Position numbers and translations under genes: made by a program
In this document: positions 49,642 to 61,411 of the stretch, in pieces
Layout of the letters: each line of letters begins with the position of its first letter
Position numbering within the stretch: position 1 is the stretch's first letter
NCBI GenBank assembly: GCA_903904755.1
Contig: CAIVDV010000048.1
Span: 1 to 64,000, forward strand
Direction of reading: 5' to 3'
DNA from: an uncultured Acidobacteriaceae bacterium
Lineage (GTDB): Bacteria; Acidobacteriota; Terriglobia; Terriglobales; Acidobacteriaceae
DNA: 64,000 nt
The notes under the pieces: generated by a model
Databases searched by the model: none
What the model was told of the DNA's origin: nothing
What the model saw: only the letters and a program-made list of their open reading frames with translations

Positions 49642-50946
49642 ATGGCAGCCTCACCCCTCGCCCGCTGGCTTTCCACCGCCCTCCTCCTCGCCGCCACCCC
49701 AGCCTTCGCCCAGCCCGCGCCCCCCATCTATCGTCTGGAAATCCGCGACACCATCCAGCCCGTCGCCGCCTGGCGTCTCCAGCGCGCCCTCGCCACCGCC
49801 GCAGCCGACCACGCCCCCCTCCTCGTCGAGCTCGACACCCCCGGCGGCCTCCTCGATACCACCCGCGAAATGGTCGGTGCCATCCTCGCCTCCCCCGTCC
49901 CCGTCATCCTCTACATCGCCCCCGCCGGTGCCCGCGCCGGCTCCGCTGGCTTCTTCCTCCTGGAGTCAGCCGACCTCGCCGTCATGGCCCCCGGCACCAA
50001 TGCCGGCGCTGCCCATCCCGTCCTCGAAGGCGCACCCCCCGACGACACCATGCGCCAGAAGCTCGAAAACGACGCAGATGCCTTCCTCCGCTCCTACACC
50101 ACCCGCCGCAACCGCAACCCCGCCCTCGCCGAGGAAGCCATCCGCACCTCACGCTCGTTTTCCGCAGACGAAGCCCTCCAGGCCGGCCTCATTGACCTCA
50201 TCGCCCCCGACGATGCCCACCTCCTCGCCGCCCTCGACAACCGCACCCTCACCCGCCTCGACGGCTCCCGCATCACCCTCCACACCGCCGGCACCCGCCT
50301 CCTCACCCTGCCCCCCACCCTCCGCGACACCCTCCTCAGCCGCCTCGCCAACCCCAACCTCGCCCTCCTCCTGCTCGCCGCCGGTGCTCTGCTCATCTAT
50401 CTCGAATTCAACACTCCCGGCACCATCGTCCCCGGTTCCCTCGGTGCTATCCTCGTCCTCGTCTCCCTTTTCGCGCTCAACCTCCTCCCCATCCGCCACA
50501 CCGCCGTCGCCCTCATCGCCGCCGCCCTCGTCCTCCTCGTCCTCGAACTCAAATTCCCCACCCACGGCATCCTCGCCGCCGCCTCCATCCTCTGCCTCAC
50601 CTTCGGCACCCTCACCCTCATCGCCGCACCCATCCCGGAAATGCGCGTCAATCCCTGGCTCGCCGTCTCCCTCTCCCTCACCCTCGGCATCCTCACCCTC
50701 GTCCTCATGCGCCTCGCCCTCCGCGCCCGCCACCACAAGTTCCTCCTCGGCGCAGCCGCCATGGTCGGCCACCAGGCCACCACCCTCGAACCCATCGGCC
50801 CCGATACCCCCGCCCATCCCCAACCCGGCCACGTCCTCGTCCAGGGCGAGATCTGGGAAGCCCGCTCCCCCTCCCCCCTCCCCCCCAACACCCCCGTCCA
50901 GGTCATCTCCGCCTCCGACTCCATCCTCACCGTCGCCCCCCGCTAA
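49642..50946 (+). CDS. NfeD family membrane serine protease (stomatin operon partner)
   Basis: A 434-residue protein. A signal peptide (cut near residue 23) is followed by a ClpP-like protease domain with GARAGSAGFFLLESADLAV, where Ser101 is the nucleophile, and Lys140 as the base. This Ser-Lys pair is spaced as in the Pyrococcus stomatin-specific protease. Four to five membrane segments follow (about 235-370), then a soluble OB-fold NfeD domain (about 375-434). GAGG lies 6 nt before the ATG. It is followed by a slipin gene, the usual partner; together they are thought to control membrane protein quality or lipid microdomains. Confidence 0.92.
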   Translation: MAASPLARWLSTALLLAATPAFAQPAPPIYRLEIRDTIQPVAAWRLQRALATAAADHAPLLVELDTPGGLLDTTREMVGAILASPVPVILYIAPAGARAGSAGFFLLESADLAVMAPGTNAGAAHPVLEGAPPDDTMRQKLENDADAFLRSYTTRRNRNPALAEEAIRTSRSFSADEALQAGLIDLIAPDDAHLLAALDNRTLTRLDGSRITLHTAGTRLLTLPPTLRDTLLSRLANPNLALLLLAAGALLIYLEFNTPGTIVPGSLGAILVLVSLFALNLLPIRHTAVALIAAALVLLVLELKFPTHGILAAASILCLTFGTLTLIAAPIPEMRVNPWLAVSLSLTLGILTLVLMRLALRARHHKFLLGAAAMVGHQATTLEPIGPDTPAHPQPGHVLVQGEIWEARSPSPLPPNTPVQVISASDSILTVAPR

Positions 50947-51120: not shown

Positions 51121-51909
51121 ATGGATTCCATCGGCTACCCCGTCCTCATCGCCGTCATCGTCATCGCCCTCTATCTCTTCAACTGCATCAAGGTCCTCCG
51201 CGAATACGACCGCGGCGTCATCTTCCGCCTCGGCCCCGTACTCCCCCAGCCCAAGGGCCCCGGCCTCATCTTCGTCTTCAAGCCCATTGACCAGATGGTC
51301 CGCGTCACCACCCGCCAAACCGTCATGGAAGTCCCCGCTCAGGACGTCATCACCCGCGACAACGTCACCATCAAGGTCAACGCCGTCGTCACCCTCAAGG
51401 TCATCGACCCCATCCTCGCCGTCGTCAAGGTCGAAAACTACGCCTACCAAACCTCCCAGTTCGCCCAAACCACCCTCCGCTCCGTCCTCGGCGAAGTCGA
51501 ACTCGACACCCTCCTCAGCCACCGCGACAGCCTCAACCTCCGCATCCAGGACATCATGGACAAGCGCACCGAACCCTTCGGCGTCAAAGTCCTCTCCGTC
51601 GAGGTCAAGCAGGTCGATCTCCCCGACCAGATGCTCCGCGCCATGGCCAAACAGGCCGAAGCCGAACGCGAAAAACGCTCCAAAATCATCCACGCCGACG
51701 GCGAATTCTCAGCCGCCCAGCGCCTCGTCGATGCCGCACACCTCCTCGCCACCGAACCCCTCACCATGCAACTCCGTTATCTCCAGACCCTTACCGAAAT
51801 CGGCGTCGAAAAGAACACCACCATCGTCTTCCCCCTCCCCGTGGATCTCCTCTCGCTCGTCAAGGAGAGTCTCTCAAGTGGTACTCCCAAGGCCGGCCTG
51901 AACGGGTAA
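51121..51909 (+). CDS. Slipin (SPFH/band 7 stomatin-like protein)
   Basis: A 262-residue membrane-anchored protein. One N-terminal hydrophobic segment (about 5-22) is followed by the SPFH domain (about 28-200), with [34 protein letters not shown] and [20 protein letters not shown] short coiled helix ([17 protein letters not shown]) and a C-terminal oligomerisation segment complete it. It forms ring-like scaffolds in the inner membrane and is the substrate or partner of NfeD. AAGGAG lies 8 nt before the ATG, and a TACAAT about 26 nt further up may be its own -10 box. Confidence 0.93.
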
Positions 51910-51975
51910 AGTGAAAGGAGAGCAGCGGCGTCGCAGTTGCATCAAACCCCACCCGCTCCTCTCCGGACACCCACC

Positions 51976-52638
51976 ATGAGCACCGCCTTTCACGAAGACG
52001 ACGAAGAACAATACGTCCCCGAAACGCCCACCGCTGATACCGAACTCACCGTCAGCGCCACCACGCTCATAGTCCTCTTTTTTGGCCTCGTCGTCCTCTG
52101 CGGCAGCTTCTTTGGCCTCGGCTACTCCCTCGGACGCCGCGAGCCCGCAGGCAACCCCCTCGCCGCGCAGCCCGTCTCCGCAGCCGCCTCCGCCGCCCGT
52201 CCCAAGCCCGCCGCCACCAACCCCGGCAACCCCACCGCAATCACCACTCCGCCCGCCGAACCCACTCCGGCCCCCGCACAGCCTCAGACGGCAACCCTGG
52301 CCACCGCTCCCCCGGCAACCCCCCAGTTGGCCACCCCGTCTCCCGCCCTGCCCGCCACGCCAACCCCATCCGTCGCCCGTCCCGCCCCCGCGCCCTCCGT
52401 CGTCGCCGCCCTCCCGCCCCCGGCCCCCATCATGGTCCAGGTCGCCGCCGTCACTGAGCAGGAAACCGCCAACCTCCTCCTCTCCGCCCTCAAAAAACGC
52501 GGCTACCCCGTCTCCATCCGCCACGAGTCCGGCGATAACCTCCTCCACATACAGGTCGGCCCCTTCGCCACCCGCGCCGACGCCCAGGCCATGCGCCAAA
52601 AACTCCAAAACGACGGCTACGCAGCCATCGTCCGCTAA
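51976..52638 (+). CDS. SPOR domain membrane protein
   Basis: A 220-residue protein. A cytoplasmic acidic N-terminus and one membrane segment (about 26-48) lead to a Pro/Ala/Thr-rich periplasmic linker (about 60-150) and a C-terminal SPOR domain (about 152-220; IMVQVAAVTEQETANLLLSA, LLHIQVGPFATRADAQAM). SPOR domains bind glycan strands stripped of stem peptides, usually at the division septum. ATG 51976 is used; a TTG at 51937 is poorly placed relative to an AAGGAG. It lies 66 bp after slipin in the same direction. Confidence 0.87.
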   Translation: MSTAFHEDDEEQYVPETPTADTELTVSATTLIVLFFGLVVLCGSFFGLGYSLGRREPAGNPLAAQPVSAAASAARPKPAATNPGNPTAITTPPAEPTPAPAQPQTATLATAPPATPQLATPSPALPATPTPSVARPAPAPSVVAALPPPAPIMVQVAAVTEQETANLLLSALKKRGYPVSIRHESGDNLLHIQVGPFATRADAQAMRQKLQNDGYAAIVR

Positions 52639-52758: not shown

Positions 52759-52793
52759 TGATCTCTGATCTCTGTCCTCTGATCTCTGCGTTC
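52759..52793 (+). repeat. Heptamer array at the plsC 3' end
   Basis: Five 7-nt units: TGATCTC, TGATCTC, TGTCCTC, TGATCTC, TGCGTTC. The last overlaps the stop codon complement of plsC. Confidence 0.85.
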
Positions 52794-53514
52794 ACCCCCG
52801 CATCCACTCCGGCAGCGCCCCGGCAATCCGCACCCGAACCTCCGCCATCATCTCCTCGCGGTCAGCGCACTCCCCTGGCAGCACCGGCTTGTGAAACCGC
52901 ACCTCCGCCGTCCCCGGATGCAGCCAGAAACTCCCCTTCGCCATCATCGTCTCCGTGCCCCAAATAGACACCGGCACACACGGCGCCCCCGTCTCCTGCG
53001 CCAAAAAGAACGGCCCCTTCTTGAACGGCAGCAGTTTACCCGTCCTGGACCGCGTCCCTTCCACAAACGTGATGATGTGTATCCCCAGGTCCAGCACCTC
53101 ACGCGCCTGCCTTACGCTCTCCTGTGCCCCCTGCACATTCCCGTCCCGGCCCACCGGCACAAACTTCGCCAGCTTCAGCGCATACCCCAGCAGCGGCAGC
53201 TTCATCAGCCCCTTCTTCACAAACGCCGAAGTCCGCTTCGGTATAAGCGGAATCAGCACCGGCGGGTCTAGATTCGAAACATGGTTCGACAGGAAGATGC
53301 ACGCCTTCCCCGCCGGAATATTCTCCCGTCCCTCCACATGCACCCGTATCCCCGCCAGCCACAGCGCCGTCTTCACCACCACCACCGCCGCCCGGTACAG
53401 CGGCATCAGGTTCCCGGTCACCAGGTACCACGGGATAAAGATCAACCCCGCCGGCGTCCCCATCCCAATCACCGCCGCAAACGCCAGCAGCGTCCGCACC
53501 ATTCGCAGAATCAT
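52792..53514 (-). CDS. plsC: 1-acyl-sn-glycerol-3-phosphate acyltransferase
   Basis: A 240-residue membrane-bound enzyme adding the second acyl chain to make phosphatidic acid. An N-terminal hydrophobic segment is followed by the PlsC motifs: SNHVSNLDPP (the HX4D catalytic motif near residues 77-83), FVKKGLMKLPLLGY, and FVEGTRSRTGKLLPFKKG (the phosphate-binding EGTRS), then PCVPVSIWGT. Its start overlaps the mpl stop by 4 nt (ATGA), so it is translationally coupled as the last gene of the mgtC-dapF-ldcA-mpl-plsC operon. Confidence 0.9.
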   Translation of the reverse strand: MILRMVRTLLAFAAVIGMGTPAGLIFIPWYLVTGNLMPLYRAAVVVVKTALWLAGIRVHVEGRENIPAGKACIFLSNHVSNLDPPVLIPLIPKRTSAFVKKGLMKLPLLGYALKLAKFVPVGRDGNVQGAQESVRQAREVLDLGIHIITFVEGTRSRTGKLLPFKKGPFFLAQETGAPCVPVSIWGTETMMAKGSFWLHPGTAEVRFHKPVLPGECADREEMMAEVRVRIAGALPEWMRG

Positions 53515-54950
53515 CCCGCAACCTCCGCCGCACGCGCTTCCAGCGCCGCTGGCAACTTCTGGTAGATCCCGCCAAATCCCCCATTCGAGAGAATCGCAAT
53601 CACATCCCCGGCCCGCGCTTCCGCCGTCAACTCCCGCACAATCGCATCCACATCCGCCAGCAGCTTCGCCGGCACGCCGGCCTCATTCACCAGCGCCACC
53701 ACTTCCTCCGGATGCAACCGCTCCTCCACCGGAATCCGCTCCATCTGGAAGACCCCGGCCATCAGCACCCTGTCCGCGCCCGCCAGCGCCTCCGCCACTT
53801 CCCGCTTGAACACATTCCTCCGCAACGTATTCGACCTCGGCTCCAGCACTGCCCACAACCGCTGCCCCGGCCAAGCCTGCCGCAGCGCCTTCAGCGTCTC
53901 CCGTATCGCTGTCGGATGGTGCGCAAAGTCATCAATCACCGTAATCCCGGCCACCTGCGCCTTCACTTCCAGCCGTCGCTTCACACTCAGAAAGCTCTTG
54001 AGGCCAGCCTGGACCGCCTCCACCGGCACCCCGTCGCCCGCCGCCAGCGCCGCCGCAGCCGTCGCATTCAGCACATTGTGCTCACCCGCCACCCCCATCT
54101 CCAGCTCCGCCCACAGCGCGCCCTCGTGCCACACCTGCCACCGGCTCCGCCCTGCCTCAAACCGCAGGTTCCGAATCTGCCAATCCGCGCCCTCCGTGAA
54201 CCCGTACCGCTCCACCGGGCAAAACGCCCTGGCCACGCACTCCGTCACATTCGCGCTGCCGTCCCACGCCACAATCCGCCCCCGCCCCGGCACCAGGTTC
54301 ACCAGCCGCTTGAACGCCGTCTTCACCTGCTCCAGGTCGGCATAAATATCCGCGTGGTCAAACTCCACACTCGTCAGTATCAGCCGCAGCGGAAAGTAAT
54401 GCAGAAACTTCGGCCCCTTATCAAAGAACGCCGTATCGTACTCGTCGCCTTCCAGCACAAAGCGGCTCGTCGACCGCAACTGATAGCTCGTCGCAAAGTT
54501 CTCCGCCACCCCGCCAATCAGAAAGCTCGGCTCCAGCCCCGCCTTCAGCCCCGCCGCCGTTTGGTATATCCACGCCAGCATGCTCGTCGTCGTCGTCTTC
54601 CCATGCGTCCCGGCCACCACAAGGGTCTCCCGCGTCTCCAAAAACTCCTGCCGCAGAATCTCCGCCATGCTGGTAAACCGCATCCGCTCGTTCAGCACCC
54701 GCTCCACTTCCGGGTTTCCCCGGCTTATCGCGTTGCCCACCACCACCAGCTCCGGCTCGCCATCCAGGTTCGCCGCCGCATACGGCTCCATTACCGGAAT
54801 CCCCATCGCCGCCAACTGGTCGCTCATCGGCGGATACGCCGCCGCATCCGACCCCGTCACCGCCAGCCCCTTCTCCCGCAACAACCCCGCCAGCGACGCC
54901 ATCGCCGTTCCGCAAATCCCAATCAGGTGCACCGTACGTGAGCCGCTCAT
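53511..54950 (-). CDS. mpl: Murein peptide ligase Mpl
   Basis: Joins recycled L-Ala-gamma-D-Glu-meso-DAP peptide to UDP-MurNAc, using ATP, in the cytoplasm. It is 479 residues long, and Mpl is about 455-480. The Mur-ligase domain order is visible: Rossmann start VHLIGICGTAMASLAGLLR, ATP loop GTHGKTTTTSMLAW near residues 115-128, EGDEYDTAFFDKGPKFLHY typical of Mpl rather than MurC, and the C-terminal DDFAHHPTAIRETLKAL and LEPRSNTLRRNVF. It overlaps plsC and ldcA by 4 nt each. Its neighbour LdcA makes the tripeptide that Mpl uses. Confidence 0.94.
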   Translation of the reverse strand: MSGSRTVHLIGICGTAMASLAGLLREKGLAVTGSDAAAYPPMSDQLAAMGIPVMEPYAAANLDGEPELVVVGNAISRGNPEVERVLNERMRFTSMAEILRQEFLETRETLVVAGTHGKTTTTSMLAWIYQTAAGLKAGLEPSFLIGGVAENFATSYQLRSTSRFVLEGDEYDTAFFDKGPKFLHYFPLRLILTSVEFDHADIYADLEQVKTAFKRLVNLVPGRGRIVAWDGSANVTECVARAFCPVERYGFTEGADWQIRNLRFEAGRSRWQVWHEGALWAELEMGVAGEHNVLNATAAAALAAGDGVPVEAVQAGLKSFLSVKRRLEVKAQVAGITVIDDFAHHPTAIRETLKALRQAWPGQRLWAVLEPRSNTLRRNVFKREVAEALAGADRVLMAGVFQMERIPVEERLHPEEVVALVNEAGVPAKLLADVDAIVRELTAEARAGDVIAILSNGGFGGIYQKLPAALEARAAEVAG

Positions 54951-55891
54951 CGCTCCACCGCCGCTTCCAGCATCCTCAACTGCGGCTCCAGCCCGCTCGT
55001 CAACTCCGCCTCCACTCCCAGCGTCAGCGTCACATTTCCCTCGCTCACGTGCCCACTCCGCAACCCAAACGCAATCGGCCCGTCAAACTCCGCCAGTGCC
55101 TGCAGAATCACGTCCTCAATCAAATCCGGCTTCGCTCCCGGCGAAACACAATCCAGCATCTCGCCAAAAACAATCCCCTTCACCCCGTCCAGCTTCCCCG
55201 CCTGCAGCAACTGCCACAGCATCCGGTCCACCTGATACGGCTTGGCCGATACATCCTCCAGAAACAGCAGCTTCCCTTCCGTCTGCGGCTCCCACGCCGT
55301 TCCCAGCAGCGAAACCAATATCGACAAACACCCGCCATAAAGGGTCCCGCGCACCGGCCGGGCCTCATGGCTCGCCCGCAGCAGCTTCATCCCCTCGCGG
55401 TTGCCCACCGTGTACGGCTCCCCCGCCAGCGCCGCCAGCAGGCTGCTCAAATGCACCCCGTTCTCCCGCGCAAAATCCGGCGACACCATCGGCCCATAAA
55501 AACTCGGCAACCCCAGCGTATCCAGCAGCGCCACCTGCACCGCCGTCAAATCGCTGTACCCGAAAATCGGCTTCGGATGCGCCGCCACCAAATCCAGGTC
55601 CAGCCCCTCCAGCAGATAGTTGCTCCCATACCCGCCGCGCGTCGCAAACACCACCCGCACCGCGTCATCGGCCAGCGCATCGTTCAGGTCCTTCAGCCGC
55701 TGCTCCTCGGTCCCGGCAAAATACAGCGGCCCTCGCGTCAGCGCATGGCGGGCCGCAACCGGCTCAAAGCCCAGTTGCTCCAGCGCCTCCATGCCCCGCT
55801 CCACGCGCGCCTGCTCCGGCGTCGATGCCGGCGATATCACCGCAGCCTTCACTCCCACCGCGGCCGAAGGTGGCTTCAGCAATTCCGTCAC
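54947..55891 (-). CDS. ldcA: LD-carboxypeptidase (peptidase S66)
   Basis: A 314-residue cytoplasmic serine peptidase that removes the terminal D-Ala from murein tetrapeptides. S66 features are AVISPASTPEQARVERG at the start, RGGYGSNYLLEGLD with the conserved GGYGS, FGYSDLTAVQ, LEDVSAKPYQVDRML with the catalytic Glu, and LRSGHVSEGNVTLTLG with the catalytic His. Start: GTG at 55891, 2 nt after the dapF stop with GAGAGG inside dapF, reads into the usual family N-terminus. An ATG at 55915 would add eight residues and overlap dapF by 22 nt, but lacks a ribosome site. The end overlaps mpl by 4 nt. Confidence 0.9.
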   Translation of the reverse strand: MTELLKPPSAAVGVKAAVISPASTPEQARVERGMEALEQLGFEPVAARHALTRGPLYFAGTEEQRLKDLNDALADDAVRVVFATRGGYGSNYLLEGLDLDLVAAHPKPIFGYSDLTAVQVALLDTLGLPSFYGPMVSPDFARENGVHLSSLLAALAGEPYTVGNREGMKLLRASHEARPVRGTLYGGCLSILVSLLGTAWEPQTEGKLLFLEDVSAKPYQVDRMLWQLLQAGKLDGVKGIVFGEMLDCVSPGAKPDLIEDVILQALAEFDGPIAFGLRSGHVSEGNVTLTLGVEAELTSGLEPQLRMLEAAVER

Positions 55892-55893
55892 GG

Positions 55894-56778
55894 CTACCAG
55901 GCCTCTCCGCGGCATATCAGCGTCGCCGGCCCGGTCAGGAAAAGATTCTCCCCCTCACCGGCCCACTCCACCATTTGCGCCCCGCCCGGCGCCACCACAT
56001 CCAGCGGCGACCCCGCGCCATACACCCCAATCATCGCCGTAGCCGTCGCCGAGGTCCCGGTCCCCGACGAAGTCGTCGGCCCCACGCCACGCTCAAAAAT
56101 CCGCAGCGCCACCTGGTCCACTACCCCTCCGCGACCGCCCAGCACCCGCACAAACTCTACGTTCGTCTGCTCTGGGAAATCCGGATGGAAGCAGATCTCC
56201 TCACCCACATCCTGCCAGCTCCGCTCCCCAATCGAGAAGTCCATCTGCTCCACTGTCGCACCCTGGCGCAAATCTTCCTTCTCTTCAAGCGAGTCCACCA
56301 GGATTACAAAATGCGGGTTGCCCATCGACACAAACACCCCGTCAATCTCCGTCCCGTCGGCCAGCTCCACCGTCTGCTCTTCAAACTCCGGCACATCCAT
56401 GTCCGTCGTCACCAGCCACGTCGGCCCGTCCATCTCCCGGTCGCGAAACTCCTTCAGCGTGCACCCCCGCACTCCCGCGTCGGTCTCCACCATCAGAACG
56501 TCGCCCACCTGCGCATCCACTTCCTCGGCCATCCACGCCGCAACGCAACGCGTCCCGTTGCCGCTGATCTCGGCCACCGATCCATCCGCGTTAAACAGTT
56601 GAATCTTGCCCGCCATCGGCCCTGTCCACGTAAAAAACTCAATGCCGTCCGCGCCAATACCCGTGTTCCGCTCGCACAGCCGTATCGCCAGTTGCGCCTT
56701 GTCAAAGCCGGCCGCATCCTCGTCCGTGATAATCAAAAAATCATTGCCGCACGCATGTGCCTTCGCATAGGGAATCAA
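55894..56778 (-). CDS. dapF: Diaminopimelate epimerase homologue with Ser replacing one catalytic Cys
   Basis: A 294-residue member of the DapF family, which interconverts LL- and meso-DAP using two cysteines as acid and base. The first is present in FNADGSVAEISGNGTRC (Cys78). The second, normally in ACGTGA, is Ser238 here (TTSSGTGTSA). Other motifs are intact: ACGNDF, GADGIEFF, VSMGNPHFV, TNVEFV and ERGVGPTTSS. The protein is full length. Serine may support slow or one-sided catalysis, or the enzyme may have another substrate. It lies inside a murein-recycling operon, 4 bp after mgtC. The symbol refers to the family; canonical activity is in doubt. Confidence 0.85.
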   Translation of the reverse strand: MIPYAKAHACGNDFLIITDEDAAGFDKAQLAIRLCERNTGIGADGIEFFTWTGPMAGKIQLFNADGSVAEISGNGTRCVAAWMAEEVDAQVGDVLMVETDAGVRGCTLKEFRDREMDGPTWLVTTDMDVPEFEEQTVELADGTEIDGVFVSMGNPHFVILVDSLEEKEDLRQGATVEQMDFSIGERSWQDVGEEICFHPDFPEQTNVEFVRVLGGRGGVVDQVALRIFERGVGPTTSSGTGTSATATAMIGVYGAGSPLDVVAPGGAQMVEWAGEGENLFLTGPATLICRGEAW

Positions 56779-56782
56779 AGCT

Positions 56783-57505
56783 TTATTCTTCCTCCGGATC
56801 TCGGTAAGTCTTCATCACATCTATCGCCGGCTCCCGCAAAAGCTGCGCCAGCAGCCGCTGATGCTCTCTCTTCGTCGCCGTCACTCCAAAACTCACTCGC
56901 TCAAGCGTACCAATCGTGTCCCGCTCCACGTTCTTCAGCCGCTCGCCCTGCTTGTCCAGGGCATCCAGAATCGACGTCAGCATCGCAGCATCATCCGTCC
57001 CGCGCGCCTCGTACACCATCGCGTAGGCTTTCAGATTCACCTTCTGCTCCAGAACACCCACCAGGGTCAGCGCAATCAGTACCAGCAGCGTTGCCGCCAC
57101 CGCCGGCGCAAACAAACCCGCGCCCGTCGCCATCCCGATCGACGCCACCACAAACACGCACGCCGCCGACGTCATCCCGCTCACCCGGCTGCGATTATGC
57201 AGAATCAGCCCGGCCCCCAGAAACCCGATTCCCTGCACGATATTCGAAGCAATCTGCCCCTTGTTCGTTCCCGTCTCGCCGGCAATCACACCGCTCAGCA
57301 GCGTAAAAAACGCGCACGCCATGCAGATCAGCATATTCGTCCGCACCCCCGCAGCGTGCTTCTTGAACTCCCGTTCCAGACCAATCACGCCGCCCAGAAA
57401 ACTCGCCACCAGCAGCCGAATCACCGCGTCATTGCCCACCAGCCACTGTTCCAGCAGCCCAAAACTCAGCGGCTGCCCCAGCATCCCTGTCATTCCAGAT
57501 GTCAT
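56783..57505 (-). CDS. MgtC/SapB family membrane protein
   Basis: A 240-residue inner-membrane protein with about five hydrophobic segments in residues 25-150 and a soluble C-terminal domain (about 155-235, ACT-like). Signature segments are FLGGVIGLEREFKKHAAGVRTNML and IVQGIGFLGAGLILHN. MgtC proteins support growth at low magnesium and modulate the F-ATPase in pathogens; SapB-type relatives are broadly distributed with unclear roles. It is the first gene of the operon that continues with dapF 4 bp later, ldcA, mpl and plsC. No magnesium-type leader is seen in the 49-bp gap upstream. Confidence 0.9.
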   Translation of the reverse strand: MTSGMTGMLGQPLSFGLLEQWLVGNDAVIRLLVASFLGGVIGLEREFKKHAAGVRTNMLICMACAFFTLLSGVIAGETGTNKGQIASNIVQGIGFLGAGLILHNRSRVSGMTSAACVFVVASIGMATGAGLFAPAVAATLLVLIALTLVGVLEQKVNLKAYAMVYEARGTDDAAMLTSILDALDKQGERLKNVERDTIGTLERVSFGVTATKREHQRLLAQLLREPAIDVMKTYRDPEEE

Positions 57506-57554: not shown

Positions 57555-59198
57555 CTACCACCGCCCCTGCTCAGCCTCACAGTCCTTGTACGAACTGGCA
57601 ACATCGGAAAATCCATTCACAACATACAGCGTTGCATTCGGCTGCCCTGCCGCCCGGAACTCCCGGCAAACCCACAACCCCTCCGGATGCGCCTTCACCG
57701 CCTCGGCAACCTCATCGCCCGCAAACGCCAGCACCATCCCCGCCTTCGCCGACGGCGCATCCAGCGCAGCCTTGAAAAACTCCTTGTCGCTCTCGTTCAG
57801 GGTCTGCTTGTAACTCATTCCCGCCCGCGGCACCACCGATGGAAATGTCGAAGTATCCAGCAGCAGCGGCATATCCGGCGCAGCCTTGTGCAAACTCCCA
57901 AGCACCGCCGAAATCTCCCCGTTGTACCGCCCGCGCGCCGCCGCGTTCTTTTCCCCTTCCACCATCACCAACGGCCCCTGCCACATCAGCACCGCCGCAT
58001 TCACCACCACCGCCACAAACAGCACCACGGTCACCAGCCGGTCCAGCCCCTCGTGATGCTCCCGGAACGATCCTCCGTGGTCAAAGAACCCCACAAACAG
58101 TGCCAGTGCCGGCAACAGCTCCATCCCGTACCGCGTGTTGTAGAACGACTGCGGCCACCACACCGGCAGAAACACCGGCACTGACCCCCACCCAATCGAG
58201 TACGCATAAAACGGCAGCGGCAGCCACAGCAGCAGCGTCCACAGAACCCGCCCCTCGCCGCCTGCCTTCCGCCGCCACGCCCAATCCATCGCCGGCAGCA
58301 TCATCAGCCACAGCACCCAGCCCCAGCCCACCGCCACCGTATCCAGCTCCGCCGCCTTGGCAAAAAACAGCGCCGATACCCACGCATTATGCCATCCCGG
58401 ATGCGGAGGCATCGCCCCATTCGCTGTCCTCAGCTCAATCGCCTTCGCCGAGTACGGCCCCCGCACAAAGTCCAGCCAGTCGCCGAACAGAACCTGGTTG
58501 TACGCCATCCACGCCACCGGAGCCGCCAGCAGCACCACGCTCGCCAGCACAAACCTGCCCTCCAGCAACCGCCCCCGCCGCTTCAGAATCAGCGCCATCA
58601 CCGCCCACGCCAGCGCCGCCAAAATCCATCCGTCATACCGCGTCAGCACCGCCGCCACCAGCACCGCAAACAGCGGCCAAAGTCTCTGCTTCCCCGGCGC
58701 ATCCAGCCGCGCATGCCACGCCGCCAGCAGCTCCACCGTCCACACCAGCTCTGCCACAAACAGCGGCTCCGTCATCGCCGTCGTCGCCAGGTACAGCAGA
58801 CTCGGATTCAGCGCAAACACCGCCAGCGCCACCACTGCCGGCACCGGGCGTATCCATCGCCGCGCCAGCCGGTACAACCCCACACACGCCAGCACATAAC
58901 AAATCGAGCTCGGTATCGCCCCCGCAAACCCCGAGCGCCACCACCCATCCACCGCTACAAACGGCATCAGCAGCAAATGCGGCAGCGGCAGCCAAACTGA
59001 CCCCAGCTGCCCCAGCCCCGGCCGGTGCGAATCAAACAATCGTCGTGCAATGTGCGTATGCGCTTCCGCGTCCCCGTATAGCAGAAAAGCGTGATGCAAC
59101 CAGCTCCACACCACCGCAGCTGCCGCCAGCACCGCCGCGCCCGCAGCCACCAGCCACTCTTCCCGCCGGCTCACCCAAATGGACTTCGCGTTAGCCAT
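57555..59198 (-). CDS. GT39/GT-C type membrane glycosyltransferase
   Basis: A 547-residue polytopic inner-membrane protein with about 11 hydrophobic segments. The first large loop holds the acidic residues FLLYGDAEAHTHIARRLFD near residues 50-68, the position of the GT-C catalytic Asp. Later parts (TRYDGWILAALAWAVMAL, YNTRYGMELLPALALFVGFF) resemble mannosyltransferase-like proteins. It probably transfers a sugar from a polyprenyl-phosphate donor on the outer face; the acceptor is unknown. ATG 59198 is chosen with GGAGG 8 nt upstream. It is 49 bp before the mgtC operon in the same direction and may be its first gene. Confidence 0.8.
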   Translation of the reverse strand: MANAKSIWVSRREEWLVAAGAAVLAAAAVVWSWLHHAFLLYGDAEAHTHIARRLFDSHRPGLGQLGSVWLPLPHLLLMPFVAVDGWWRSGFAGAIPSSICYVLACVGLYRLARRWIRPVPAVVALAVFALNPSLLYLATTAMTEPLFVAELVWTVELLAAWHARLDAPGKQRLWPLFAVLVAAVLTRYDGWILAALAWAVMALILKRRGRLLEGRFVLASVVLLAAPVAWMAYNQVLFGDWLDFVRGPYSAKAIELRTANGAMPPHPGWHNAWVSALFFAKAAELDTVAVGWGWVLWLMMLPAMDWAWRRKAGGEGRVLWTLLLWLPLPFYAYSIGWGSVPVFLPVWWPQSFYNTRYGMELLPALALFVGFFDHGGSFREHHEGLDRLVTVVLFVAVVVNAAVLMWQGPLVMVEGEKNAAARGRYNGEISAVLGSLHKAAPDMPLLLDTSTFPSVVPRAGMSYKQTLNESDKEFFKAALDAPSAKAGMVLAFAGDEVAEAVKAHPEGLWVCREFRAAGQPNATLYVVNGFSDVASSYKDCEAEQGRW

Positions 59199-59259
59199 CG
59201 TCTCCGCCTCCAAGAGAGCATACGCCCAAACCCGCATATGTCCCACCCGCGGCCATCCC

Positions 59260-59346: not shown

Positions 59347-59375
59347 CCCCAGTCCCTGCGTCCCTGGTCCCTAAT
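59347..59375 (+). repeat. 7-8 nt array containing the pfkB stop
   Basis: Units CCCCAGT, CCCTGCGT, CCCTGGT, CCCTAAT. The CTA in the last unit is the complement of the TAG stop of the kinase gene. Confidence 0.85.
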
Positions 59376-60300
59376 CCAAATGCGTCAACTCCCGGAACAC
59401 CTCAAACCGCGCATCAATCTCCGCCCGGCTCAGCCCCTGCAGCCGCTCGGTGCCAAACTTCTCCACCGCAAACGACCCCATCACGCCCCCGTAGAACATC
59501 GCCCGCCGCACCACCGCCGGCGTCACTTCCTTCTGCGACGCAATATACCCGAAGAACCCGCCCGCAAAGCTGTCCCCGGCCCCAGTCGGATCCACCACCA
59601 AATCCAGCGGCAGCGCCGGCGAACGGAACGGCCGCGGAACATCCTTGCTGCCAAAGCTTCCCTCGCCAAAATACGCCGTCGCGCCGTACTCGCCGTGCTT
59701 CACCACCACCGCCTTCGGCCCCAGCGCCAGCACACCCCGCGCCGCCAGCAGCGCATTCGTCTCGCCGGAAATCAGCCGCGCCTCGGTGTCGTTGATAAGC
59801 AGCACATCCAGCCCCGGCAGCACCTTCAGCAGGTTATCCCGATGGTCGTTGATCCAGTAATTCATCGTGTCGCCGCACACCATCCGCGCCTGCGGCATCG
59901 CGTCCCGCACCCGCTTCTGCAGCACCGGATCAATATTGGCCAGAAACAGAAACTCCGTCCCCAGGTACGCCTCGGGAATCTTCGGCGAAAAATCCCCAAA
60001 CACATTCAGCTCCGTCGTCTCCGTCTTCGCCTCGTTCAGGTTCTCCAGATAATTCCCGGCCCAGAAAAACGACTTGCCCCGTGCCCGCTCCAGCCCGCGA
60101 AGATCAATCCCCCGCGCCTTGAACACGCTCTCCTGCCGCGGCCCAAAGTCCTCGCCCACCACCGCAATCACCTGCACTTCAGTAAAGTAGCTGGCCGCCA
60201 GCGCAAAATACGTCGCCGCCCCGCCCAGGCACCGCTCCCGCCGTCCCGCCGGAGTCTCAATCGTGTCAAACGCCACACTGCCAACCACCGTAATCGCCAA
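59371..60300 (-). CDS. PfkB family carbohydrate/nucleoside kinase
   Basis: A 309-residue cytoplasmic kinase of the ribokinase/PfkB fold. The N-terminal ITVVGSVAFDTIETPAG, the lid region GGAATYFALAASYF and the C-terminal anion hole and catalytic base DPTGAGDSFAGGFFGYIA (Asp near residue 245) are intact. The substrate is not clear: a sugar, nucleoside or sugar phosphate. It lies upstream-adjacent to MTA phosphorylase across a repeat, which hints at a nucleoside or ribose link but no more. It uses a TTG start supported by GAGG 6 nt upstream; no in-frame ATG is near. Its stop codon is part of a short repeat array. Confidence 0.87.
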   Translation of the reverse strand: MAITVVGSVAFDTIETPAGRRERCLGGAATYFALAASYFTEVQVIAVVGEDFGPRQESVFKARGIDLRGLERARGKSFFWAGNYLENLNEAKTETTELNVFGDFSPKIPEAYLGTEFLFLANIDPVLQKRVRDAMPQARMVCGDTMNYWINDHRDNLLKVLPGLDVLLINDTEARLISGETNALLAARGVLALGPKAVVVKHGEYGATAYFGEGSFGSKDVPRPFRSPALPLDLVVDPTGAGDSFAGGFFGYIASQKEVTPAVVRRAMFYGGVMGSFAVEKFGTERLQGLSRAEIDARFEVFRELTHLD

Positions 60301-60450: not shown

Positions 60451-61317
60451 CTATCCCTGAAGGTACTTCCCCCACAGCAACGCAACCTTCGCCTTCGTCG
60501 CCGCAGGAATCAGATCCCGCTGCGTAAGCACGGCAAACTGCGCCGCATTCACACACCCGCAGCCGCGCTCCACCGGCATCGCAGCCACCGCAGCCTTCAC
60601 CACCAGCGCCGCATTCGCCGCATTCTGGTGCAGCACCGCCACAATCTGCTCAATCGTCACCGAATCATGATGCGGATGCCAGCAGTCATAGTCCGTCACC
60701 ATCGCCACCGTCGCGTAGCAAATCTCCGCCTCCCGCGCCAGCTTCGCCTCCTGCAGGTTCGTCATCCCAATCACATCCGCGCCCCAGCTGCGGTACAGGT
60801 TCGACTCCGCCTTCGTCGAAAACTGCGGCCCTTCCATGCAGATATACGTTCCGCCCCGCTTACCCACTACACCGACCTCGGCGCAGGCCTTCTCCGCCGC
60901 CTCCGCCACCACCGCACACACCGGGTCGCCAAACGCCACATGGCCCACAATCCCTTCGCCAAAAAACGTCCCGACGCGTGCAAACGTGCGGTCAATAAAC
61001 TGATCCGGAATCACAAAATCCGTCGGCTTGTGCTCTTCCTTCAGCGAACCCACCGCCGAAACCGACAATATCCGCTCCACTCCCAGCGCCTTCATCGCGT
61101 AGATATTCGCCCGGAAGTTCAGCTCACTCGGCAGCAGCCGGTGGCCTCGGCCATGCCGCGCCAGAAACGCCACCTGCCGCCCCTCCAGCTCGCCCAGCAC
61201 AAACGCATCCGACGGCGCGCCAAACGGTGTCTCCACCACTTCCTCGCGCACATTCGTCAAACCCGGCATCGAGTACAACCCCGACCCGCCAATAATCCCA
61301 ATCTCCGCCTTCGCCAC
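60451..61317 (-). CDS. mtnP: S-methyl-5'-thioadenosine phosphorylase
   Basis: A 288-residue enzyme cleaving methylthioadenosine with phosphate to adenine and methylthioribose-1-phosphate in methionine/purine salvage. Type II nucleoside phosphorylase features: [14 protein letters not shown] at the start, [50 protein letters not shown] and MVTDYDCWH with the Asp that selects 6-amino purines. The GTG start has GAGGG 9 nt upstream; the longer frame from 61410 runs into a repeat array and is rejected. A close alternative is a purine nucleoside phosphorylase of the same fold. Confidence 0.92.
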
Positions 61318-61411
61318 TCGAATCCACCCTCTCCGCCGCCCCGCAAAAAGGGTCGGCCAATCCAATTCCAGACCCCTCAGTATAAAGGTGAAGCCCCCGC
61401 CGACGCGCAAA

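Follow-up and report, generated by a model that had tools for sequence, protein, structure and literature searches.

A DapF homolog of Acidobacteriota with putative catalytic serines in place of both cysteines

The DapF homolog encoded in the window, the 64,000-nucleotide stretch of DNA from an uncultured Acidobacteriaceae bacterium analyzed here, is probably a housekeeping DAP epimerase with a Ser/Ser acid-base pair, and belongs to a DapF branch that is widespread in Acidobacteriota. This assignment is supported by the conserved set of DAP-contacting residues, the occurrence of the protein as the sole DapF of its genome, the presence of the pathway genes, the near-exclusion of the Cys/Cys form of DapF, and the predicted fold. 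DapF produces meso-diaminopimelate (meso-DAP), a key amino acid of the cell wall. We infer that the protein is an active enzyme, that DAP is its substrate, and that the two serines serve as acid and base.

Fold and catalytic positions of the window protein

The gene and the codons discussed below are located as follows:

55894..56778, minus strand: dapF homolog of 294 aa with a TTG start, Ser/Ser type
56563..56565, minus strand: Ser72 (AGC), aligned with the catalytic Cys73 of H. influenzae DapF and Cys83 of C. glutamicum DapF
56545..56547, minus strand: Cys78, the non-catalytic cysteine of the GNGxRC motif
56089..56094, minus strand: Glu229-Arg230, the DAP-contacting pair equivalent to Glu212-Arg213 of C. 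glutamicum DapF and unchanged throughout the Ser/Ser set
56065..56067, minus strand: Ser238 (TCG), aligned with the catalytic Cys217 of H. influenzae DapF and Cys221 of C. glutamicum DapF

The initial annotation of the gene as a dapF homolog is borne out. The open reading frame matches TIGR00652 over the whole protein with 178.1 bits (curated cut-off 114.65), and PF01678 matches both halves of the protein, which contains no other Pfam family. The score against NF038284, the bifunctional DapF/glutamate racemase, is 58.9 bits, far below the cut-off of 350. The AlphaFold2 model of the protein has a pLDDT of 94.8, and its best Foldseek matches in the PDB are DapFs (best E 7.6e-28, TM about 0.7-0.8). 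A solved Ser/Ser enzyme was sought among the structure matches, all of which are DapFs or O-ureidoserine racemases as judged by entry name.

As judged by alignment, both catalytic cysteines of DapF are replaced by serine in the window protein. Ser72 is positioned directly before the GNG of AEISGNGTRC, where solved DapFs read xCGNGxRC. Ser238 is part of ERGVGPTTSSGTG, in which the ACGTG motif reads SSGTG. Ordinary DapFs have two catalytic cysteines, one per domain, at the positions that are occupied here by Ser72 and Ser238. The PROSITE signature of the DapF active site (as quoted in PMC8225329) fails because NADGSVAEISGNGTR has a serine where cysteine is demanded. In the predicted model, Ser72 lies at the N-terminus of the helix formed by residues 73-86 and Ser238 at the N-terminus of helix 239-251, like the cysteines of DapF. 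The initial annotation had described the replacement of one catalytic cysteine by serine, which holds for Ser238, but the first site is a serine as well: the alignment with solved DapFs assigns it to Ser72 and not to Cys78, as had been proposed. Cys78 is the second cysteine of the motif; ordinary DapFs have it too, in a non-catalytic role.

Alanine mutants of N15, N74, N85, N159, N194, E212, R213, and T223 abolish C. glutamicum DapF (PMC5296763). All eight residues are kept in the window protein, as N12, N63, N74, N154, N206, E229, R230, and T240. Six of the eight are invariant among 93 Ser/Ser proteins; Asn74 is replaced by Asp in one of them, and the position of Thr240 is occupied by Thr in 77 and Ser in 16. 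Apart from the two catalytic sites, columns such as 227 (Phe/Ile against Thr/Val) and 81 (Ala against Arg/Lys) distinguish Ser/Ser from Cys/Cys proteins; these are candidates for compensation, and the difference is partly due to the many Cys/Cys rows from one phylum.

Distribution of the Ser/Ser form in Acidobacteriota

A profile search of 200 genomes of the class to which the source bacterium belongs identified DapF in 157, nearly always as a single match. About 148 class genes were read besides that of the window, after the removal of two duplicate loci. Every one is Ser/Ser, so that the alignment of acidobacterial homologs suggested in the initial annotation has serine at the second site, and at the first site too, in all class genes read. 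Across 197 Ser/Ser genes from the class and the wider phylum, position 72 is encoded by all six serine codons (AGC, AGT, TCA, TCC, TCG, and TCT), and position 238 by TCN and AGC, representing both serine codon blocks. Sequencing error or codon reassignment is ruled out by this codon mixture and the approximately 148 class homologs. The mean pairwise identity among the 93 Ser/Ser proteins is 40%, and the invariance of both serines at this identity, across TCN and AGY codons, indicates strong purifying selection.

A further sample comprised 80 named Acidobacteriota loci. Outside the class, 70 genomes were typed: 48 Ser/Ser, 20 Cys/Cys, and 2 Cys/Ser. Exactly one DapF match is present in 67 of the 70. 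The Cys/Cys and Ser/Ser forms occur together in three genomes (two f35 genomes and G346), compared with about 16 expected if they were independent (48/70 x 23/70 x 70); because the lineages are not independent, this near-exclusion is a trend and not a test. The two forms behave as if they were interchangeable. The sequences sampled point to the Ser/Ser form being a phylum-scale active-site variant of DapF and not a case of local decay. No description of a Ser/Ser DapF was found in the open-access literature searched, outside of which most subscription journals lie, and the same literature held nothing useful on acidobacterial dapF or wall DAP.

In a first tree with few outgroups, the Ser/Ser rows are scattered and form no single clade. 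The second, quick tree was calculated under a mixture model after removing the catalytic columns and adding Cys/Cys DapFs from other phyla. There, a single clade beside mainstream DapFs unites 47 Ser/Ser rows (SH-aLRT 97). Most of the sampled acidobacterial Cys/Cys proteins form a separate clade, and two other Cys/Cys rows are on long branches. One Ser/Ser DapF (L206:2052-3374, genome G263, family f42) groups with the acidobacterial Cys/Cys clade, and its placement indicates that the double substitution arose there independently.

Mixed active sites were also observed. Two DapFs from families f20 and f31 (L185:3274-4134 and L194:3723-4574) keep the first cysteine and have serine at the second site; they are possibly intermediates or asymmetric enzymes. 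Outside Acidobacteriota, a DapF homolog on the Rhizobium phaseoli plasmid pRphaBra5d (L366:101-850) has a cysteine at the first site and a serine at the second (GSGSC). Two loci on viral contigs matched at 31% identity.

Supply of meso-DAP, operon context, and alternative functions

The source genome, that of a soil bacterium, is 97.5% complete, and all genome-wide statements are based on profile searches. DapA, DapD, LysA, MurE with DNPR, and Mpl were all found. The match to the dapB family is below cut-off, and DapE is a homolog of the DapE-family protein of family f6 (322 bits). DNPR is the meso-DAP motif of MurE, and LysA requires meso-DAP. Searches with PF01678 and TIGR00652 detected no second DapF in the source genome, and no proline racemase (PF05544) matched anywhere in it; it contains one Alr. 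Ddh has no match over cut-off in the 200 class genomes, and the sole match in the source genome is N-terminal, 75 residues long, with 22 bits. Since DapA, DapD, DapE, LysA, and MurE with DNPR are present, and Ddh, proline racemase, and a second DapF were not found, this DapF remains the one evident source of meso-DAP.

These results do not support the core proposal of the initial annotation, a specialized side enzyme accompanied by a normal DapF elsewhere. No such DapF was found in the source genome, nor was Ddh or a proline racemase, and the sampled class genomes mostly have one DapF, which is Ser/Ser wherever read. The annotation held that the proposal would fail if this were the only dapF of the genome and the protein had normal epimerase activity; the searches agree with the first half, as they found no other DapF.

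The dapF gene lies in a run of genes on the minus strand:

52792..53514, minus strand: PlsC-like 1-acylglycerol-3-phosphate acyltransferase, the end of the coupled run, overlapped by mpl by 4 nt
53511..54950, minus strand: mpl, UDP-MurNAc:L-Ala-gamma-D-Glu-meso-DAP ligase (TIGR01081, 447 bits, over cut-off), overlapping ldcA by 4 nt
54947..55915, minus strand: ldcA-like LD-carboxypeptidase (peptidase S66), overlapping dapF by 22 nt
56783..57505, minus strand: MgtC/SapB family membrane protein, 4 nt upstream of dapF
57555..59246, minus strand: PMT_2-like membrane glycosyltransferase, a syntenic neighbor
59371..60300, minus strand: PfkB-family kinase, a syntenic neighbor
60451..61410, minus strand: S-methyl-5'-thioadenosine phosphorylase, a syntenic neighbor

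The murein-recycling context noted previously is confirmed by the overlap of dapF with ldcA and by the recurrence of the dapF-ldcA-mpl order in families f1, f6, and f7. A membrane-protease-like cluster adjoins the operon: SPFH/stomatin-like and SPOR-domain-like open reading frames, identified by eye at 51121-52638, follow a profile-confirmed NfeD homolog at 49642-50946.

The conserved gene order is one reason to consider that the protein was repurposed to another DAP-type substrate in murein recycling, such as DAP peptides or a derivative, perhaps in a one-base or elimination reaction, while another enzyme makes meso-DAP. This is the main alternative, and we regard it as rather unlikely. It gains from the dehydratase activity of a natural Ser/Thr enzyme of the ProR superfamily (PMC4113996) and from family f6, in which enzymes that consume meso-DAP persist in genomes lacking dapF. 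It is opposed by the invariance of the residues that bind the distal carboxylate and amine, contacts superfluous for a peptide substrate, by the near-exclusion with Cys/Cys DapF, and by the lack of any Ddh over cut-off in the class. Furthermore, neither ldcA nor mpl was seen near the Ser/Ser gene in loci outside the class, where the flanks are shorter.

The association of the Ser/Ser form with DAP supply is also indicated by genome G259 (f35), in which an additional dapF of the Ser/Ser type overlaps a gene of the DapE/ArgE family (L346:9341-11283). By its sequence, the pair looks like a two-gene module converting LL-DAP to meso-DAP. The same genome keeps a diverged Cys/Cys DapF (L345:9424-10212) near an enolase-like open reading frame read by eye.

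Family f6 lowers our confidence in the housekeeping role. The gene is missing from most of the sampled f6 genomes (G005, G014, G022, G030, G037, G044, and others; loci L332, L335-L339, L343, L349, and L370-L380). Profile searches detected no DapF in 19 of 19 f6 genomes, and a few other f6 genomes do carry a Ser/Ser DapF. The operon is otherwise intact around the missing gene, and no shared replacement gene occupies its slot in the loci read. LysA and MurE with DNPR are kept in the sampled f6 genomes, and DapA/B/D/E-type genes are present in the loci read. Because f6 lost dapF and yet kept enzymes that consume meso-DAP, a specialized substrate for the Ser/Ser DapF is possible. No Ddh was found in f6, and a proline racemase or a second Alr was rejected as a substitute, since neither is consistent across the family. 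Another route to meso-DAP probably exists in f6. E. coli dapF mutants stay viable with reduced meso-DAP, and the loss in f6 therefore does not disprove the role of DapF as the epimerase elsewhere.

It is very unlikely that the protein has no catalytic function and serves instead in DAP binding or regulation, for example with a partner role like that of E. coli DapF with RppH. Both known acid/base thiols are lost, and the E. coli RppH-DapF complexes 6d13 and 6vck are among the structure matches; however, the ligand-contacting set is invariant, both catalytic positions have Ser and not Ala or Gly, and the source genome would be left with no known route to meso-DAP. Least probable of all is thiol chemistry by relocated cysteines, with Cys78 or Cys35 replacing the missing pair: both show 90% conservation or more in alignment A1, and Cys78 is a cysteine in 193 of 197 Ser/Ser proteins, but four Ser/Ser proteins lack it, ordinary Cys/Cys DapFs carry it in a non-catalytic role, and the 25 most discriminating columns contain no replacement cysteine specific to the Ser/Ser form.

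Putative catalysis by two serines

DapF is a drug target and the standard example of an epimerase with two thiols; both cysteines are regarded as essential, and the thiolate is considered to be what allows a very weak carbon acid to be deprotonated. We hypothesize that the window protein is a housekeeping epimerase that would receive LL-DAP from the succinylase route DapA-DapB-DapD-DapE and bind it as in ordinary DapF. The distal carboxylate would be bound by Asn63, Asn154, Asn206, and Arg230 and the amino groups by Glu229, and the reacting carboxylate would be contacted by Asn74, Thr240, and backbone amides. Domain closure would place the hydroxyls of Ser72 and Ser238, each at the positive end of a helix, on the two sides of the alpha carbon. 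One serine would take a proton and the other would return one on the opposite face, producing meso-DAP, which would go to MurE and LysA, and Mpl would re-use the recycled meso-DAP tripeptide.

The window protein resembles canonical DapFs (PDB 8qzy, 9mro, 5m47, 3ejx, and 1gqz) in its two-domain fold, DAP contacts, helix-capped catalytic positions, and single copy in most sampled genomes, and differs from them in the two serines and the failed PROSITE signature. Serine at a catalytic position has been engineered in the C73S and C217S variants of DapF (PDB 2q9h and 2q9j), mutants of a kind reported to impede catalysis (PMC12039745). Those variants are man-made and altered at one site each, whereas the window protein has both serines naturally, fixed by selection. 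The O-ureidoserine racemase, HisR/CntK, and PddB share the fold and are amino-acid racemases that function without a cofactor. Unlike the window protein, HisR and PddB use a Cys/Cys pair. Single Cys-to-Ser mutants of PddB have less than 0.1% activity, with those of M. tuberculosis DapF cited as similarly impaired (PMC8225329), and those of HisR have greatly reduced activity (PMC11602996). These nearly inactive mutants of relatives count against an active Ser/Ser pair.

A precedent for serine in a catalytic position is the natural 4-hydroxyproline 2-epimerase, which works with a Ser/Cys pair (4HypE, Ser93/Cys236, B9JQV3; PMC4113996). This enzyme and the Ser/Thr dehydratase t3HypD (PMC4113996) have a DapF-like fold and a natural catalytic-site serine, and both are working enzymes. 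They belong to another subfamily and act on other substrates, and the 4HypE epimerase keeps one cysteine. The asparagine positioning the catalytic serine is three residues on in 4HypE and t3HypD, and an asparagine is found two residues on in the window protein. No Ser/Ser enzyme is among the characterized natural serine enzymes of the ProR superfamily that were located, one being the Ser/Cys epimerase and another the Ser/Thr dehydratase.

The case is about evenly balanced for cofactor-free epimerization at the alpha carbon by two serine hydroxyls, with no thiol, as the main source of meso-DAP in a large bacterial group, reached within the phylum by two or more separate changes from Cys to Ser. 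If the Ser/Ser form, carried by most of the Acidobacteriota genomes sampled, is active on DAP, the thiol is dispensable for the reaction. C. glutamicum DapF loses its activity under oxidation, when its two catalytic cysteines form a disulfide (PMC5296763); the Ser/Ser DapF would be unable to form this bond, and would probably be insensitive to thiol-directed inhibitors. If it is inactive on DAP, the whole class would make meso-DAP by another route.
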